Shown here one piece after another: positions 17,654 to 24,682 of a stretch of DNA of 64,000 nucleotides. The stretch spans positions 124,001 through 188,000 of the forward strand of contig NZ_JAEIJD010000001.1 of NCBI RefSeq assembly GCF_016307205.1, read 5' to 3'. The position numbers were made by a program, and so were the translations under genes. Each line of letters begins with the position of its first letter. Positions within the stretch are counted from its first letter, which is position 1. This DNA comes from Pontibaca salina (GTDB taxonomy: Bacteria > Pseudomonadota > Alphaproteobacteria > Rhodobacterales > Rhodobacteraceae). The notes under the pieces are model-generated. The model made no database searches, was not told where the DNA came from, and saw nothing but the letters and a program-made list of their open reading frames with translations.

Positions 17654-20332
17654 TTAACGGTTCAACGACCACCAGCCACGTCGTTTGGGTTTGGCCGCGT
17701 CTTCCGGCGCAGTATCGACCGCTTCTTCAACCGGTTTCGGCGTCCTTTCGGTGTCTGGCTTTGCCGTGGGCTCCGGTGCCGAGCTGGGCCGCTCCACGGC
17801 TGCGACCGGCTTGGGCGTTGGTTCCGGCTTGGTCTCAGCCGCCGGTCCATTGCTTTTGGCTGCCGCATCGTCGCTCGCTGGTGCAACCGTCGTCTTATCG
17901 GCCGCAGCCGCCACGGCTACGGCTGGTTTGTCGCTGGCCCTTGCAGCGGCCGGCGCGGAACGGCGCGACCGCGTGCGCACCACCGTTTTAGGTGTATCCT
18001 CGGGCGCATCACCAGCTGTCGGGGCGTCACCCGATTGCGTTTGCGTTACGTCGTCAGTCTGTGTCCGTCTGGGCTGCCTGGAGCGTGATCTGCGCGGTGC
18101 CCTAGACTGGGTCGCGGAGGGTTGAGCATCCTCTTTCTCGTCCTCGCCAGCGGTGGTGGCGGCGGCAGCAGCCGGTTCGGGGGATTTACTATCACCTTCA
18201 ACAGGTTCGGGCCCGGTTTCTCCCTGCTGGCTATCATCGGTGCCAGTTTGGTCAGGCCTGCCGTTTTTGCTGCGCCGTGGACGGCGGCGGCGGCGGCGTC
18301 TCGTTTTGCCGTCGCCATTTCCACCCTCTGCATTGGCCGGCGTCTCGTCATCGTCACCGTCACCGCCAATGTCGGTGCTGCTATCATCAGCCTTGGCATC
18401 GACCTGATCCATCAGCGATGTATCGACCGAGACGACTGGATCGGCTGCGACCTCCACATTGCGACTGGCGGTTTTAAGCTTCTCAAGAGAGAAGTCGGGG
18501 CTGACCAATTGCACGTCACCCTCGATGCGAACCGACAGACCATAGCGTGTTTCGATGCGGGCGATATGCTCGCGCTTCTGGTTCATCAGGAAGTTGGCGA
18601 CATTGACTGGCACGCGCACTACGATCTCGCGCGAGCGACCGCGAACGCCCTCTTCCTCGATCTGGCGCAAGATATTGAGCGCCATGTTATCGTCCGAGCG
18701 AATCAACCCAGTGCCATGACATGCCGGACATGGCTGGGTGGTCGCTTCAATCATACCGGGGCGCAGACGCTGGCGGCTCATTTCGAGCAGACCAAAGCCA
18801 CTAATCCGGCCCACCTGAATCCGTGCGCGGTCGGTTTTCAGCTTGTCTTTCAACCGTTTTTCCACTGCCGTGTTGTTCTTGCGGTCGTCCATGTCGATAA
18901 AATCGATGACAATCAAACCGGCCAGATCACGCAGACGCAATTGGCGCGCGATTTCCTCGGCGGCTTCAAGGTTGGTCTTGGTCGCCGTTTCCTCGATGCT
19001 GCCTTCTTTGGTCGCACGCCCCGAGTTGACGTCGATCGCCACCAGCGCCTCAGTCACCCCAATCACGATGTAGCCACCCGATTTCAACTGTACCGTCGGA
19101 TTGAACATCGAGCTGAGATAGCTTTCGACCTGATACCGCGCAAACAGCGGCATCGTATCCTGATAATGCTTCACGTTCTTGGCGTGCGACGGCATGATCA
19201 TCTTCATGAAGTCTTTGGCGATGCGATAGCCGCGCTCGCCCTCGACCAGAACCTCATCGATTTCGCGGCTGTAGAGATCGCGGATCGAACGCTTGATCAG
19301 ATCGCCTTCGGCATAGATACTTGCCGGTGCAACCGATTTCAGCGTCAGTTCGCGGATCTGCTCCCATAGGCGCTGAAGATATTCGTAATCGCGCTTGATT
19401 TCGGTTCGGGTGCGCTTCGCTCCGGCAGTCCGCACAATCAACCCGGCCCCTTTGGGCACGTCGATTTCAGCGGCGATATCCTTGAGCTTCTGCCGGTCGG
19501 CAGCGTTGGTGATCTTGCGAGAAATCCCGCCACCGCGCGCGCTGTTGGGCATCAGGACGCAATACCGACCCGCCAGCGAGAGATAAGTGGTCAGCGCCGC
19601 GCCTTTGTTACCGCGCTCTTCCTTTACGACCTGTACCAGAAGGATCTGGCGCACCTTCACAACTTCTTGGATCTTGTACTTACGCGGTCGCGGTTTACGG
19701 ATCGGGCGCAGATCTTCGGTGTCATCGTCATCCGCAACAGATTCGATTGTGTCATCCTTAGCGACAGGATCGCTGCCGTTGCCGTGCTCTGCACCGGACA
19801 CACTGTTCGCGTCGCCGTTCTGATCGCCCAGCGGCTCTTCGACCGGCGTTTCGGCAACCCGCTCCATCGGTGATGTACCTTCTGCGGCATCATCTTCGCT
19901 CGGATCAATGGTTTCCATGCCATTGATATCGGTCGATTCAACAGCATCATCAGATTTCGTCGCCTCGGCCACCGATTTTGTCCGAGACCCACGGCGCGCG
20001 CGCGAGGACTCAGCGGCGTTCTCTTCCGCTTCCAGCGCCTCGGCATAGGCGCGCTCTTCCTCCATCAACGCTTCGCGGTCGGCGACGGGAATCTGGTAAT
20101 AATCGGGATGGATCTCGGAAAACGCCAAAAATCCGTGCCGGTTTCCGCCATAATCCACGAACGCCGCCTGTAGCGACGGTTCGACGCGGGTTACCTTGGC
20201 AAGATAGATATTGCCGGCAAGCTGCCGCTTGTTTTCGGATTCGAAATCAAATTCTTCAACCTTGTTTCCATCAACCACCACGACGCGGATTTCCTCCGCG
20301 TGGGTGGCGTCGATAAGCATTTTATTGGCCAT
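17654..20332 (-). CDS. rne: Ribonuclease E
   Basis: An 892-residue endoribonuclease that starts mRNA decay and processes rRNA and tRNA. The S1 domain (residues about 36-250) is interrupted by an acidic insertion at about 88-218. Catalytic Asp434 (VAIDVNSG) and Asp477 (VIDFIDM) are in the DNase I-like domain, and the zinc-link is CPACHGTG with Cys535 and Cys538. From about 640 the protein is low-complexity: an Arg block (RRRRRRRPRRSKNGR), then Pro/Ala/Glu-rich sequence, the expected degradosome scaffold. ATG at 20330-20332 has AAGGTAAC upstream. The last ~60 residues form a P/E/T-rich tail ending RRGWWSLNR. Confidence 0.95.
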   Translation of the reverse strand: MANKMLIDATHAEEIRVVVVDGNKVEEFDFESENKRQLAGNIYLAKVTRVEPSLQAAFVDYGGNRHGFLAFSEIHPDYYQIPVADREALMEEERAYAEALEAEENAAESSRARRGSRTKSVAEATKSDDAVESTDINGMETIDPSEDDAAEGTSPMERVAETPVEEPLGDQNGDANSVSGAEHGNGSDPVAKDDTIESVADDDDTEDLRPIRKPRPRKYKIQEVVKVRQILLVQVVKEERGNKGAALTTYLSLAGRYCVLMPNSARGGGISRKITNAADRQKLKDIAAEIDVPKGAGLIVRTAGAKRTRTEIKRDYEYLQRLWEQIRELTLKSVAPASIYAEGDLIKRSIRDLYSREIDEVLVEGERGYRIAKDFMKMIMPSHAKNVKHYQDTMPLFARYQVESYLSSMFNPTVQLKSGGYIVIGVTEALVAIDVNSGRATKEGSIEETATKTNLEAAEEIARQLRLRDLAGLIVIDFIDMDDRKNNTAVEKRLKDKLKTDRARIQVGRISGFGLLEMSRQRLRPGMIEATTQPCPACHGTGLIRSDDNMALNILRQIEEEGVRGRSREIVVRVPVNVANFLMNQKREHIARIETRYGLSVRIEGDVQLVSPDFSLEKLKTASRNVEVAADPVVSVDTSLMDQVDAKADDSSTDIGGDGDDDETPANAEGGNGDGKTRRRRRRRPRRSKNGRPDQTGTDDSQQGETGPEPVEGDSKSPEPAAAAATTAGEDEKEDAQPSATQSRAPRRSRSRQPRRTQTDDVTQTQSGDAPTAGDAPEDTPKTVVRTRSRRSAPAAARASDKPAVAVAAAADKTTVAPASDDAAAKSNGPAAETKPEPTPKPVAAVERPSSAPEPTAKPDTERTPKPVEEAVDTAPEDAAKPKRRGWWSLNR

Positions 20333-20847
20333 GTTACCTTGGTGCACCACGGCAAAACTGCCCGCCCTGGCGGACGGGAGCGTTTGGGGTGATGTCTTGT
20401 CAGGGCGATGTCAGACGCAGCGCGGCATGCAGTCAGGCAGGGCATGGCCCATTGGCCCCCTGCTCTTGTGCTCAATCCTCGCGCACGCGTCATCGCGGTT
20501 CTTCTCCGACAGGTCGGGGCGGCCCCGACTCTGCCCATTATTCCCCTTGCCGACATATTAAACGGTCAAAGGCATTACGTTGATCCCGGATAGGATCACA
20601 TCGGTCTGAACGGTCCATGGGCGCGGCTTGCAGCCCAGTCCGACTCAGCGAAACTCTTAGCGGATCGCGGTTTATGTCGACGCGCTCCGTCATTTCACAA
20701 TATGGCCAAGCGTAGGGGGATGACAATGGGAAATTTCGCCCCCCTTGCCGGGCGCGGTGCCGGGCGAGCGTTATTATTCTGCCGAAACAACGCGCAGCGC
20801 CTTCGACACCTAATGTCAAAATCCTATCTGCCGCCAACCGGAATGCG
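20333..20847 (-). promoter_or_regulatory. Long leader and promoter region of rne
   Basis: 515 bases separate dctD from the rne start on the same strand and no protein frame is convincing. A perfect 7-bp hairpin, GTCGGGG/CCCCGAC, lies at 20513-20529. RNase E mRNAs in other bacteria have long structured leaders through which the enzyme controls its own synthesis; this region could serve that role, but I see only the length and one hairpin. Confidence 0.45.
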
Positions 20848-22182
20848 TCAAAGGTAATCTGATCGTTGCAGGCCGTATTTGGCCATTTTCTCGTTCAGTG
20901 TCCGGCGGGGAAGGCACAACTCCTCCATGACACTGGCGATGCTACCTTTGTGACGGCGCATGGTGTTGTCGATCAGCATGCGCTCGAACGCCTCGACATA
21001 TTCCTTGAGCGGTTTGCCCTCGGTGGTCATCACTGGCTGCATTTCTTCATGATCCGACATCAGCAACGATGCGATGGTGCCCGAACCGCGCCGCGATTGC
21101 AGCACTGCGCGTTCCGCGATGTTAATCAACTGGCGCACATTGCCGGGCCAAGGCGCCTGCAACAGTTGTGCCGCCTCCTGTGCGGATACTTGCGGCGCCT
21201 CGCAGCCATATTCGTCGGAGAACTGCTCGGACAGGCGCGTGAAGAGCATCAGGATATCCTCGCCACGCTGGCGCAGCGGCGGCACGGTGATCCGCAACGC
21301 AGCCAGACGGTAGAAAAGATCGGGCCGCAGGGCGTCCTCAAGGGTGCGCCCTGCCTCCTGCATGTTGGAAATCGCGACGATACGGGTTTCGGCGGGGGTG
21401 CCCTGCTCATTGATGACGCTCAGCAGTTTGGCCTGCAAAGTCTCGCTGAGCGCGTCGATATCTTCCAGCACCAACGTGCCGCCGCGCGCTTCCTCGATTG
21501 CCGGAAGTTGCGTGTCCTCGGGCTGCATGGGGCCGAACAGACGTTTGGAAAGTGCATCTTCCTCTAGCGCGGCGCAACTGATGAGGACGAATTTCTTGCC
21601 CGCACGGCTGCCCACCGCGTGCAGGGCATGGGCCACCAACGTCTTGCCGGTGCCGGTTTCGCCATCGATCAACACGTGACCGTCTGCCTGCCCCAGATCC
21701 AGAATATCATCTTTCAGGCGCTCCATCACCGGGCTCGACCCGATCAGCTTTTTCATCAACTGGGTGCCGTCGCTCAACTCGCGGCGCAAGGCGCGGTTGT
21801 CCAGCGTCAGCCGACGCGCGCCGGTGGCGCGTTTGGCCAATTCAGACATTCGGTCGGGATTGAACGGCTTTTCCAAGAAATCGAAGGCGCCCACGCGCAT
21901 CGCCTCGACCGCCATCGGCACGTCGCCATGCCCGGTGATCATGATGACCGGCAGCGCACTGTCGGCGCCCATCAGTTTCTTCAGAAACTGCATCCCGTCC
22001 ATGCCGGGCATACGAATGTCGGAAATGACGATTCCGGGATAATCAGGGCCAAGCTTTTTCAGCGCCTCTTCGGCGCTGGAAAAGGTTTCGGTGTCGTACC
22101 CCGACAGCGCCAGCCACTGGCTGATACTTTGCCGCATATCCTGTTCGTCGTCCACGATTGCAATTTTCATCGCCTGCGCCAT
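20848..22182 (-). CDS. dctD: DctD-type response regulator lacking the sigma-54 contact loop
   Basis: A 444-residue regulator with receiver domain (phospho-acceptor Asp55 in VISDIRMPG), AAA+ domain with Walker A GETGTGKT at 174-181, and a Fis-type helix-turn-helix at the end ([20 protein letters not shown]). In ordinary members the loop GAFTGA, which touches sigma-54, follows the LFG after Walker A. Here LFG (215-217) is followed by [19 protein letters not shown] and the loop is missing. Walker B reads LVLEDI instead of LFLDEI. It follows its kinase gene dctB. It may therefore act without sigma-54, as Rhodobacter NtrC does. Confidence 0.88.
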
Positions 22183-22198: not shown

Positions 22199-23980
22199 CT
22201 ATTCTGCCGCTTCCATTCCATCTTCGTGAATTGGAAGCTGCATCTCAAACACCGCGCCGCCGTTCTGCGCATTGCGGGCCGTTAGCCGTCCGCCAAGGTC
22301 GCTGACGATCCCGGACGAGATGGCAAGCCCCAGTCCGACACCGTCGCCGGGGGTCTTGGTGGTATAGAACGGTTCGAACAGCGCATCCAGATCTTCGATT
22401 CCCCGACCGTTGTCACGCACCGTCAATGTCGCCGTTTCGCCGGCGGCAAGAATAATCTGAACTTCGGGATCAGCGACCGTCTTGGTAGCGTCCAGCGCAT
22501 TACGCAAAAGATTGACCATCACCTGCTCAATCCGCATCCGGTCGCCCATTACATAGACCGGCGTATCGGGCAGAATTTGCGCGATCTGCACCTGTCGATG
22601 GCGCAATTGGGGCTCCATCATCGACAGCGCCGAAGCAAGCGCATCGTTCATATTCAACGGTGAAAAGCTTTCACTTCCCTTACGGGCATAGGATTTTAGC
22701 TGTCGAGTAATCGCGCCCATACGTTCGATCAGGTCATCAATCCGCCCGAACGAGGCCAGCGCTTCTTCGGGACGGTGGCGGCGCAGCAGCAAGCGCGCGC
22801 CAGCCAGATAGGTTTTCATCGCCGCCAGCGGCTGGTTCAGTTCGTGGCTGACTGCGGCCGACATCTCACCCAACGCCGCCAGTTTACTGGATTGCGCCAA
22901 GGTCTGTTCGGCCACCGCAAGGTTTTCCTGAACTCGTTCGCGCTCGGCGATTTCCCGCTGCAGGCGGCTGTTCAATGCCCGCAACTCGGCAGATTCCCGC
23001 TGAAACAGCGCCATGCGCACCGCGGTCTTCCGGCTGAGCAGATAGAAAGCCGCCGCCAAAAGAATGGCGAATCCCATAATTTCGAGTGCCAGCACACCGT
23101 TCACCCGCTCACGGATTGATTCGTAAGTCGTGAAAGACGCCATCCGCCAGCCACGGAAGGGAATCCGGGCCTGGGTGCGCATCACTGCCTCGCCGCGCAA
23201 ATAAGCGTCGGCGGGCACTGCCGTCCAATCGGTGGTGGCCCGGATCGCGCGTTCGATGGCATTTTGCGGGGTCTGCAGCTGCACGGCCTGTTCTTCGGTC
23301 AAGCCGCGCCAGCGCGATTCTGTCGCCAGAATGATGGTCCCAGTGGAGTCCATCACCATCACCGCGTCGGAAATCCCGGCCCAGGCGCGCTCGAATTTTT
23401 GCAGATCAACCTCCGCCACGATCACGCCCAAAATCGAATTTCCGCTTTCCAGACGGCGGGAATAGGTGAAACGGTAACCGCCCGCTTCGCGCGGGATGAC
23501 AGAGAACACGGTAGAATTTGCCCGGACGGCATCTACGAAATAGGGTTCGCTACGATGCGATGAGCCAAGGCGGTTGCGATCCGTTGCCGCCACCGTGCGC
23601 CCGTTATTATCGAGCAGCATCAGCGATGCCGCGTCAATCTCGTCGACAAACGAAATCAGGCGCTGGGTGGACTGACTGAAATCTTTCGAATTGAGCGCGG
23701 CGATCAGGGTCGGGTCGCGCGCCAAAAGCTGAGGTACAATTGCGTTGCGGCGCAATTCGCTCAGCAAGTTGCCCCCGTATAACGCGAGTCGCACTTCGGC
23801 GCGGTTACGGGTGTCTTTGGTGAACCGCTCGGTCAGCAATCGATTGGTGACCCAGACGGTTGCCACCGCGGCCACCAACACAATCAAAAGCAGCACCCGC
23901 ACCCGCCAACCGACCGGCTGACTGCGACTTGCAGGGCCGGTCTCCGATGGAGGAGAATGTTTGCCCGACGTTGACATCAC
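22199..23980 (-). CDS. dctB: DctB-type sensor histidine kinase
   Basis: A 593-residue inner-membrane kinase. The first span is at about residues 25-46, a periplasmic PDC-type sensor domain follows to about 285, and a second span lies near 290-312. Then come a coiled region, the H-box SHELNQPLAAMKTYL and the ATP-binding N, G1 and G2 motifs (LLRNALDATK, VRDNGRGI, GVGLGLAI). DctB senses C4-dicarboxylates and phosphorylates DctD. No dctPQM transporter lies in this window, so the target operon is elsewhere. It precedes dctD by 16 bases. Confidence 0.9.
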   Translation of the reverse strand: MMSTSGKHSPPSETGPASRSQPVGWRVRVLLLIVLVAAVATVWVTNRLLTERFTKDTRNRAEVRLALYGGNLLSELRRNAIVPQLLARDPTLIAALNSKDFSQSTQRLISFVDEIDAASLMLLDNNGRTVAATDRNRLGSSHRSEPYFVDAVRANSTVFSVIPREAGGYRFTYSRRLESGNSILGVIVAEVDLQKFERAWAGISDAVMVMDSTGTIILATESRWRGLTEEQAVQLQTPQNAIERAIRATTDWTAVPADAYLRGEAVMRTQARIPFRGWRMASFTTYESIRERVNGVLALEIMGFAILLAAAFYLLSRKTAVRMALFQRESAELRALNSRLQREIAERERVQENLAVAEQTLAQSSKLAALGEMSAAVSHELNQPLAAMKTYLAGARLLLRRHRPEEALASFGRIDDLIERMGAITRQLKSYARKGSESFSPLNMNDALASALSMMEPQLRHRQVQIAQILPDTPVYVMGDRMRIEQVMVNLLRNALDATKTVADPEVQIILAAGETATLTVRDNGRGIEDLDALFEPFYTTKTPGDGVGLGLAISSGIVSDLGGRLTARNAQNGGAVFEMQLPIHEDGMEAAE

Positions 23981-24013
23981 ATCAAACTATGTGCTGCGCG
24001 CAGCCGACTCAAG

Positions 24014-24682
24014 TCACGCGGTGGCAAAGGTTCCCGCCAAAGCATGAAACATCGCCTTGCCGTCAGTGCCACCCAGCACCGGATCAGCGGCGCGCTCAGG
24101 GTGGGGCATCATGCCTAGAACCCGGCGATTTTCGGACAGGATGCCGGCAATATCTTGCACCGATCCGTTCGGATTGTCGAGATAGGTGAAGGCCACGCGA
24201 TCTTCACCATGCAGGCGCGCCAGCGTATCGTCATCGGCAAAGTAATTGCCGTCGTGATGCGCAATCGGAATCTCGACCGTGTCGCCGGCGCTGTAGTTTT
24301 CGGTGAAAGCACTGGCCGCAGTGGCGACTTGCAACCCAACAGTGCGGCAGACATATTTCAGTCCGCTATTGCGCAGCAATGCACCCGGTAGCAAACCCGT
24401 CTCGGTCAGTACCTGAAAGCCGTTGCAGACCCCCAGCACATATCCCCCCCGACCCGCATGGTCGGCCACCGCCCGACAGATCGGGGATTGCGCCGCGATG
24501 GCGCCGCAACGCAAATAGTCGCCATAGGAGAACCCGCCGGGGATACCGACGATATCTAGATTGTCCGGCAGCGAGCTATCCTTGTGCCAGACCATTTTGA
24601 CGTCAAACCCGGCAGCGCGAAACGCGACGGCCAGATCACGGTCGCCGTTCGAGCCAGGAAATACGAGAACACCCGCCCGCAT
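24014..24682 (-). CDS. purQ: Phosphoribosylformylglycinamidine synthase subunit PurQ
   Basis: A 222-residue class I glutamine amidotransferase. It supplies ammonia to PurL for step four of purine synthesis. The nucleophile is Cys86 in [10 protein letters not shown], the catalytic His/Glu pair is in [10 protein letters not shown], and FPGSNGDRD opens the protein as expected. It forms a complex with PurS and small PurL. purS lies immediately upstream with the start and stop overlapping, and purC precedes purS. purL is outside the window. Confidence 0.95.

Follow-up and report, generated by a model that had tools for sequence, protein, structure and literature searches.

A DctD-type response regulator without the sigma-54 contact loops in Pontibaca salina, with loop-less relatives across Rhodobacteraceae

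Described loop-less regulators and the dctBD locus

In sigma-54 activators the loops L1 and L2 engage sigma-54 and couple ATP to it, as described in PMC2745333 and PMC7175178. Loop-less regulators of the NtrC family are already known in Rhodobacterales and elsewhere (PMC3162934, PMC10274813). For instance, the GAFTGA-bearing L1 is deleted in NtrC of Rhodobacter capsulatus, as in NtrC of other Rhodobacterales, and by the account in PMC10274813 this protein acts via sigma-70 and needs phosphorylation, as well as ATP binding rather than hydrolysis. The same source describes the loop-less NtrC of Caulobacter as both repressing and activating, with both of its Walker motifs needed for growth on ammonium, and the GAFTGA-less VpsR of Vibrio cholerae, which resembles the protein studied here in this respect, as a regulator of sigma-70 promoters (PMC10274813). 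The loop-less paralogues TyrR, DhaR, and HupR are reported to be sigma-70 dependent, and Jannaschia is noted as lacking sigma-54 (PMC3162934). In our searches of the open-licence literature we found no report of a loop-less DctD in Rhodobacteraceae, nor of a DctD conversion across a whole family in which one branch has a rhizobial-type operator and has lost the nucleotide-binding lysine.

The stretch of 64,000 nucleotides analyzed here (the window) belongs to a 40-contig draft genome of 2,930,504 bases (2.93 Mb, listed as 100% complete) and encodes a loop-less regulator, hereafter DctD-1, with the following features.

20848..22182, minus strand: DctD-1, loop-less DctD-type response regulator, 444 aa (open reading frame and domain match)
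21838..22164, minus strand: receiver domain, residues 7-115 (Pfam, 111.6 bits)
21274..21747, minus strand: AAA+ domain, residues 146-303 (Pfam and structure model)
21640..21663, minus strand: Walker A GETGTGKT, residues 174-181, kept (sequence)
21502..21531, minus strand: remnant of L1, residues 218-227, expected GAFTGA absent (sequence, alignment)
21457..21474, minus strand: Walker B, residues 237-242, LVLEDI with Asp and Glu in swapped order (sequence)
21382..21411, minus strand: shortened pre-sensor-I loop L2, residues 258-267 (alignment)
21307..21327, minus strand: arginine-finger region R286...R292, kept (alignment)
20875..20997, minus strand: Fis-type helix-turn-helix (HTH), residues 396-436 (Pfam, alignment)

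The coding strand of the DctD-1 open reading frame (22182-20848), left unstated in the preliminary description of this DNA, is the minus strand. Pfam places the sigma-54-activator AAA+ match at residues 146-298 (96.8 bits) and the AAA lid at residues 304-372. The name DctD is given by similarity only, since the 25 NCBIfam models listed, of 107 matching the protein, all lie far under their cut-offs (best 291 bits vs 650). The AlphaFold model was built on few aligned sequences; its overall quality is poor (mean pLDDT 59.1), and it is usable for the AAA+ core and the HTH only. The preliminary description had stated that the GAFTGA loop is missing after LFG, that Walker B reads LEDI instead of LDEI, and that the receiver, Walker A, arginine region, and Fis HTH are intact. 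All three statements were borne out: the 25 residues read after LFG (217) contain no GAFTGA, the swapped acidic pair is E240 D241, and the remaining parts are kept in the clade alignment described below. The shortening of L2 is a further change beyond that description.

Alignment with DctD of Rhizobium and of other Rhodobacterales had been proposed as a check; the alignment with Sinorhizobium DctD and family relatives found GAFTGA in Sinorhizobium and in 0 of the 157 sequences of the DctD-1 clade. DctD of Sinorhizobium meliloti (L195, on pSymB) has the same architecture, an adjacent sensor kinase, and 37.8% identity to DctD-1; unlike DctD-1, it has GAFTGA, L2, and LDEI and adjoins a dicarboxylate symporter gene, and the gap between dctA and dctB in Sinorhizobium holds the operator TGTGCGGATTTCCGCACA and the promoter TGGCACGCATGTTGCT. 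The analogy with R. capsulatus NtrC that had been drawn for DctD-1 is apt by the account of that protein in PMC10274813: compared by description, both have the loop deleted and the ATP-binding site kept. Unlike R. capsulatus NtrC, which is of a different family and has known targets, DctD-1 also has a short L2 and a swapped Walker B. Further loop-less enhancer-binding proteins of Alphaproteobacteria are Caulobacter NtrC and the NtrX encoded in the same genome as DctD-1 (L001), although this NtrX, unlike DctD-1, retains L2 and FDEV at Walker B. The Foldseek listing for DctD-1 includes 7v2b, noted here beside VpsR.

Upstream of dctD-1 lies the gene of the partner kinase, and the surroundings are as follows.

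22199..23980, minus strand: DctB, partner histidine kinase (open reading frame, domain match); likely true start ATG 23977, inferred from the promoter pattern
23267..23770, minus strand: periplasmic double-Cache sensor of DctB, kinase residues 71-238 (resembles DctB sensors of known structure)
23984..24012, minus strand: sigma-70-type hexamers before dctB, TTGAGT 24012-24007, 17 bp, TAGTTT 23989-23984 (conserved pattern)
24014..24682, minus strand: purQ, conserved upstream neighbour (open reading frame, relatives)
17654..20350, minus strand: rne, downstream neighbour (open reading frame, relatives)

The sensor matches the Vibrio and Sinorhizobium DctB structures 3by9 (2.5e-12) and 3e4o and 2zbb (about 7e-9), and dicarboxylate sensing by DctB is plausible from this resemblance to C4-dicarboxylate sensors. 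The gene order is stable: purQ lies upstream of dctB in 79 of the 80 named relatives, the one exception having a contig that stops within dctB, and rne lies within the fetched flank of dctBD in 69 of 80. Directly after the purQ stop codon, a C-TTGNNN-(16-19)-TANNN[TC] pair is found in 70 of 79 relatives, with a spacing of 17 bp in 63 and the first ATG or GTG 6 nt past the pair in 53; single-base shuffles match this pattern at 1.8%. In the window, TAGTTT ends 6 nt before the predicted dctB ATG (23977). A generic consensus promoter scan gave the hexamer pair no score. This conserved layout suggests that a sigma-70-class promoter drives dctB and yields a leaderless transcript. On reading the purQ-dctB gap of 34 relatives, no palindrome that could serve as an autoregulation site was seen, the hexamer pair being the only conserved element.

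Loop loss, ATPase motifs and sigma-54 across the family

The DctD-1 clade set comprises 157 sequences, 154 of them full length, drawn from overlapping genome sets and so not 157 independent organisms; the fragments L042 and L053 are inside the 157 and outside the 154, and the fragment L061 fell under the score threshold and was counted among the comparison rows. A GAFTGA-like loop is present in none of the 157 sequences, so its absence is not due to chance or assembly error. L2 (columns 250-268) has 19 residues in 142 of 157 sequences (range 18-25), against 28 residues in 15 of 17 comparison rows (one further row has 32, and one, a fragment, has 0). Of the 154 full-length sequences, 150 have E at position 240; the residue at position 241 is D (132 sequences), G (11), N (7), E (3), or H (1). 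The receiver residues DD11-12, D55 (the phospho-acceptor), T83, and K105 are found in 154/154, while the Walker A pattern GxxGxGK, R286, and R292 are each kept in 151/154. In L055, L058, and L060 the Walker A lysine is replaced by arginine and the finger arginines are lost; the first two come from RpoN-carrying genomes and the third from a genome with no RpoN match. The 80 named records share 87-95% identity in DctD-1, with receiver, HTH, and Walker A near-invariant. In genome G049 (L053) the DctD-1 reading frame is broken into two overlapping parts that lie in different frames, through either a real lesion or a sequencing error. Two records titled Nocardioides marinus and a Poseidoniales archaeon (L098, L153) come from contigs carrying Roseobacter-type dctBD at 90-95% identity and are likely mislabelled or contaminated.

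Models of the RpoN DNA-binding and core-binding domains (PF04552, PF04963) gave 0 matches each in the genome of DctD-1, an absence that rests on these two family models and a 40-contig draft; the same two models match in 4 of 14 control genomes. Five PF00158 matches were found in this genome, namely NtrX (2.0e-48), DctD-1 (4.0e-28), and three weak ones, and neither strong match has the GAFTGA loop. With no RpoN domain match and both coupling loops absent or shortened, the suggestion in the preliminary description that the pair works without sigma-54 is strongly supported for this genome. On the features compared (loop, L2, Walker B, and RpoN), DctD-1 by its sequence falls outside the sigma-54-dependent class.

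Across the family, 92 of 295 genomes have an RpoN match above the cut-off, including one marginal match of 23.2 bits over 41 positions (G075) and a few others that are partial. DctD-1 is matched at E ≤ 1e-100 in 269 of the 295, of which, by hand count, 77 belong to the 92 with RpoN and the other 192 have no RpoN above the cut-off; DctD-1 is thus kept where sigma-54 seems absent. The DctD-1 sequences fetched from RpoN-carrying genomes (19 of the 20 loci of one fetched set, and several of another) are loop-less as well, from which it follows that loop loss does not need RpoN loss. The genomes G263, G015, G130, and G162, which branch early on the DctD-1 tree, carry RpoN, an NtrC with GAFTGA, and a loop-less DctD-1. 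The proposal that RpoN loss caused loop loss was rejected on these four genomes. Most simply, and assuming that their RpoN is inherited, loop loss would have preceded RpoN loss.

Trees were built by a quick method with SH-aLRT support only, with the loop columns left out and without L042, L053, and L061. The DctD-1 clade forms one group with SH-aLRT 100 in both trees (52 rows; 31 rows). L056 and L057, in which both loops are missing and LDEV is retained, branch first within it, and the sequences most simply suggest that the loops were lost first and the ATPase site was altered later. In the first tree DctD-1 joins alphaproteobacterial DctD (SH-aLRT 95 for the joint group). In the second, to which the DctD-3 regulators described below were added, the joint group (95) also includes DctD-2, and the loop-less regulators form separate groups: DctD-1 (31 rows, 100), DctD-2 (5 rows, 100), and DctD-3 (13 rows, 99). 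DctD-2 falls outside the DctD group in the first tree and beside DctD-1 in the second, which leaves the order of the lineages unsettled. DctD-3 falls outside the group holding Sinorhizobium DctD, although the two share the operator type. Judged from the trees, DctD-1 and DctD-2 might share one loss, which would give two or three loop losses overall.

Loop-less regulators beside dctP in relatives

The operator pattern TGCGGAWWTCCGCA was searched, with one mismatch allowed, in the genome of DctD-1 and in six relatives, giving 62 sites in total vs 9 for the reversed control. The matches in the relatives uncovered the third regulator, DctD-3 (L246-L275, L294-L315), next to dctP. DctD-2 is represented by L064, L065, L188, L196, and L229, together with L239 by sequence; nearly all rows of both groups come from the same family as the genome of DctD-1, L188 being from another. 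At E ≤ 1e-100, DctD-3 is matched in 127 of the 295 family genomes (hand count), the genome of DctD-1 not among them; the best match there (7.3e-64) was taken as DctD-1 itself.

The 52 DctD-3 loci comprise the 30 best matches and 22 hand-picked ones, 20 of the latter with RpoN over the cut-off. GAFTGA was found in none of the 52. None of them keeps the Walker A lysine either: in the 30 best matches as in the 22 others, another residue, mostly I, T, or V, takes its place. The more distant loop-less members L276, L277, and L279 retain the lysine, so in DctD-3 too the loop was lost before the ATP site. VpsR reportedly needs neither ATP nor phosphorylation, and DctD-3, without the Walker A lysine, is closer to VpsR in this respect than DctD-1 is.

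R. capsulatus NtrC uses tandem sites upstream of a sigma-70 promoter; tandem sites were found for DctD-3, and no sites were found for DctD-1. A dctP match lies at most 700 nt downstream of DctD-3 in 43 of 52 loci, and operator-like sites (at least 12 of 16 positions) number at least two in 40 loci and at least one in 45. The tandem TGTGCGGA-NN-TCCGCACA sites before dctP lie 33 bp apart in 21 loci and 32 bp apart in 19. Between the proximal operator and dctP, GG-N10-GC at 8/11 was found in none of 25 two-site loci. A wider scan for sigma-54 promoters gave weak 8-9/11 matches in 6 of 52 loci, some of them within coding sequence; for comparison, L292, the sole GAFTGA row among 20 more distant loci, has a 9/11 match. 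TTG(A/T)(G/C) and TTCAC stand 17 bp apart in 10 of 52 loci, mostly close relatives, with the proximal operator 96-99 nt upstream in every case; the exact pattern is missing in the other 42. This looks like a regulator acting at a distance on a sigma-70 promoter, a prediction from the arrangement of these sites. In L246-L275, the interval that separates the operators from the promoter holds a weakly conserved TTGAAA-like AT-rich block, starting from the proximal operator at a distance of about 45-70 nt downstream; as a guess, it could be an IHF-type bend site.

The loop is readable in 12 of the 20 more distant loci: 11 read GAFPGA, GAYPGA, or GAFAGA and one GAFTGA. The 11 rows (L280, L282, L284-L291, L293) carry a Thr-to-Pro/Ala change at the sigma-54 contact; 8 are from genomes with RpoN over the cut-off, and 4 have a dctP match downstream. 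Five GAFPGA/GAFAGA rows share a sigma-54-promoter match that can be read as codons and probably belongs to coding sequence.

Sites of the TGCGGAWWTCCGCA type are common to DctD-2 and DctD-3, and in Ruegeria conchae and R. pomeroyi the gap from dctD-2 to dctP also holds the core of the Sinorhizobium operator. DctD-2 keeps L2 and LDEI, and in L196 and L229 it adjoins TRAP genes. The label "sigma-54 dependent", attached to the DctD-2 records of R. pomeroyi and R. conchae, is misleading for proteins without the loop and in genomes without RpoN.

Few examples bear on the mechanism by which a sigma-54 activator driven by ATP can become an ordinary regulator. The family offers a graded series, from GAFTGA through GAFPGA/GAFAGA and loop loss with ATPase motifs kept to a swapped Walker B and a lost Walker A, with operators and a candidate promoter mapped for DctD-3. 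We tentatively propose, at somewhat under even odds, that a sigma-54 activator family was converted in place: at least two, perhaps three, DctD-type lineages of Rhodobacteraceae would have lost the loops, DctD-3, which combines rhizobial-type operators and enhancer-like spacing with the loss of the Walker A lysine, may switch dctPQM without ATP, its tandem operators standing about 100 bp ahead of a sigma-70 promoter, and DctD-1 would be the widespread, transporter-unlinked branch with a regulon of its own.

Mechanism, targets and alternative readings

With a probability of roughly 0.7, we read the locus as a DctB-DctD-type pair whose regulator works without sigma-54, on sigma-70-class promoters. 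DctB would sense a C4-dicarboxylate-like ligand and phosphorylate D55 of DctD-1, and the phosphorylated regulator would oligomerise on DNA. ATP binding may then serve as a structural switch, with weak or no hydrolysis, because the acidic pair is swapped and D, G, or N stands at the catalytic position in 150 of 154 sequences. Finally, DctD-1 would recruit the housekeeping polymerase or make contact with it, in a way similar to that described for R. capsulatus NtrC. That DctD-1 works like this protein, phosphorylated, ATP-binding, with little hydrolysis, and on sigma-70, is our best inference and one drawn by analogy; in part of the clade ATP may be irrelevant, as the motif losses of L055, L058, and L060 suggest. 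In favour of the sigma-54-independent reading are the tandem rhizobial-type operators before dctP, with no clear sigma-54 promoter, in the parallel case of DctD-3. Against it, relatives that carry RpoN show the same loop loss and altered Walker B, so that neither is tied to the absence of RpoN.

The preliminary description had further suggested that the pair controls dicarboxylate transport, a claim that draws no support from gene position or from operators. In the flank of dctBD (up to 6 kb, shorter at contig ends) a TRAP gene is present in 1 of 80 named relatives, and no adjacent dctA or dctPQM with a DctD operator was found at the window's own dctBD locus. The genome has nine DctP-type binding-protein genes, and across the window and these nine TRAP regions the DctD-type operator is not enriched (11 matches vs a mean of 9.8 for 31 permuted palindromes). 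Genome-wide, the operator pattern has 0 exact and 4 one-mismatch sites (reversed control 0), all four inside long open reading frames. The dctP linked to DctD-3 is at best 35% identical to the nine regions. L175, the dctP of this genome with the best score, is matched at E ≤ 1e-100 in 2 of 31 genomes, its own and one of two other congeners; the region upstream of it showed no convincing palindrome, and its alignment with the sister species is poor beyond the last ~60 bases. Transport of C4-dicarboxylates in R. sphaeroides depends on a different regulator, DctR (PMC9430884). DctD-1 probably has targets other than an adjacent dct operon. Another of the nine binding-protein genes, L178, adjoins flagellar-looking genes, as judged from open reading frame sequences only.

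DctD-1 could still govern dicarboxylate uptake by acting in trans on at least one of the nine TRAP operons; the resemblance of the DctB sensor, the grouping with alphaproteobacterial DctD, and the presence of nine DctP-type genes favour this, but the rarity of TRAP genes near dctBD, the lack of operator enrichment with all four one-mismatch sites inside long open reading frames, the low identity of the nine regions to the DctD-3-linked dctP together with the narrow occurrence of L175, and the use of DctR in R. sphaeroides (PMC9430884) count against it, and we regard it as possible but doubtful. That DctD-1 is a TyrR- or HupR-like repressor, which occupies sigma-70 promoters and recruits no polymerase, we consider unlikely. 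TyrR, DhaR, and HupR are precedents for it as loop-less, sigma-70-dependent proteins (PMC3162934), as is Caulobacter NtrC, described as repressing as well as activating (PMC10274813), and ATPase motifs are lost in 3 of 154 members; yet Walker A and arginine fingers in 151 of 154 exceed the needs of a protein that simply occupies DNA, and no promoter-overlapping operator was found for DctD-1, although no operator of DctD-1 was found at all.

Use of a divergent sigma-54 that the family models miss, engaged via another surface, is very improbable: 77 of the 269 DctD-1 genomes do have RpoN over the cut-off, but both domain models find nothing in the genome itself, and L1 and L2 are described as the very parts that engage sigma-54 (PMC7175178, PMC2745333). 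A decaying, functionless remnant, to which the lost loops, the altered Walker B, and the split frames in G049 would fit, is scarcely credible either, given the 87-95% identity over 80 named records, the near-invariant receiver, HTH, and Walker A, and the promoter-like pair conserved before dctB in 70 of 79 relatives.

Within the sigma-54-independent reading, DctD-1 is a putative activator that may instead repress. For a loop-less DctD, small transposon fitness changes of R. pomeroyi in mixed cultures offer a hint of a positive role by their signs: the dctD-2 gene SPOA0237, equated here with the loop-less protein of L229 by gene order and name rather than by locus tag, is listed at -0.27/-0.25/-0.22, and its neighbours SPOA0238 (-0.18/-0.20/-0.18) and SPOA0240 (-0.14 each) have the same sign (PMC10041152).
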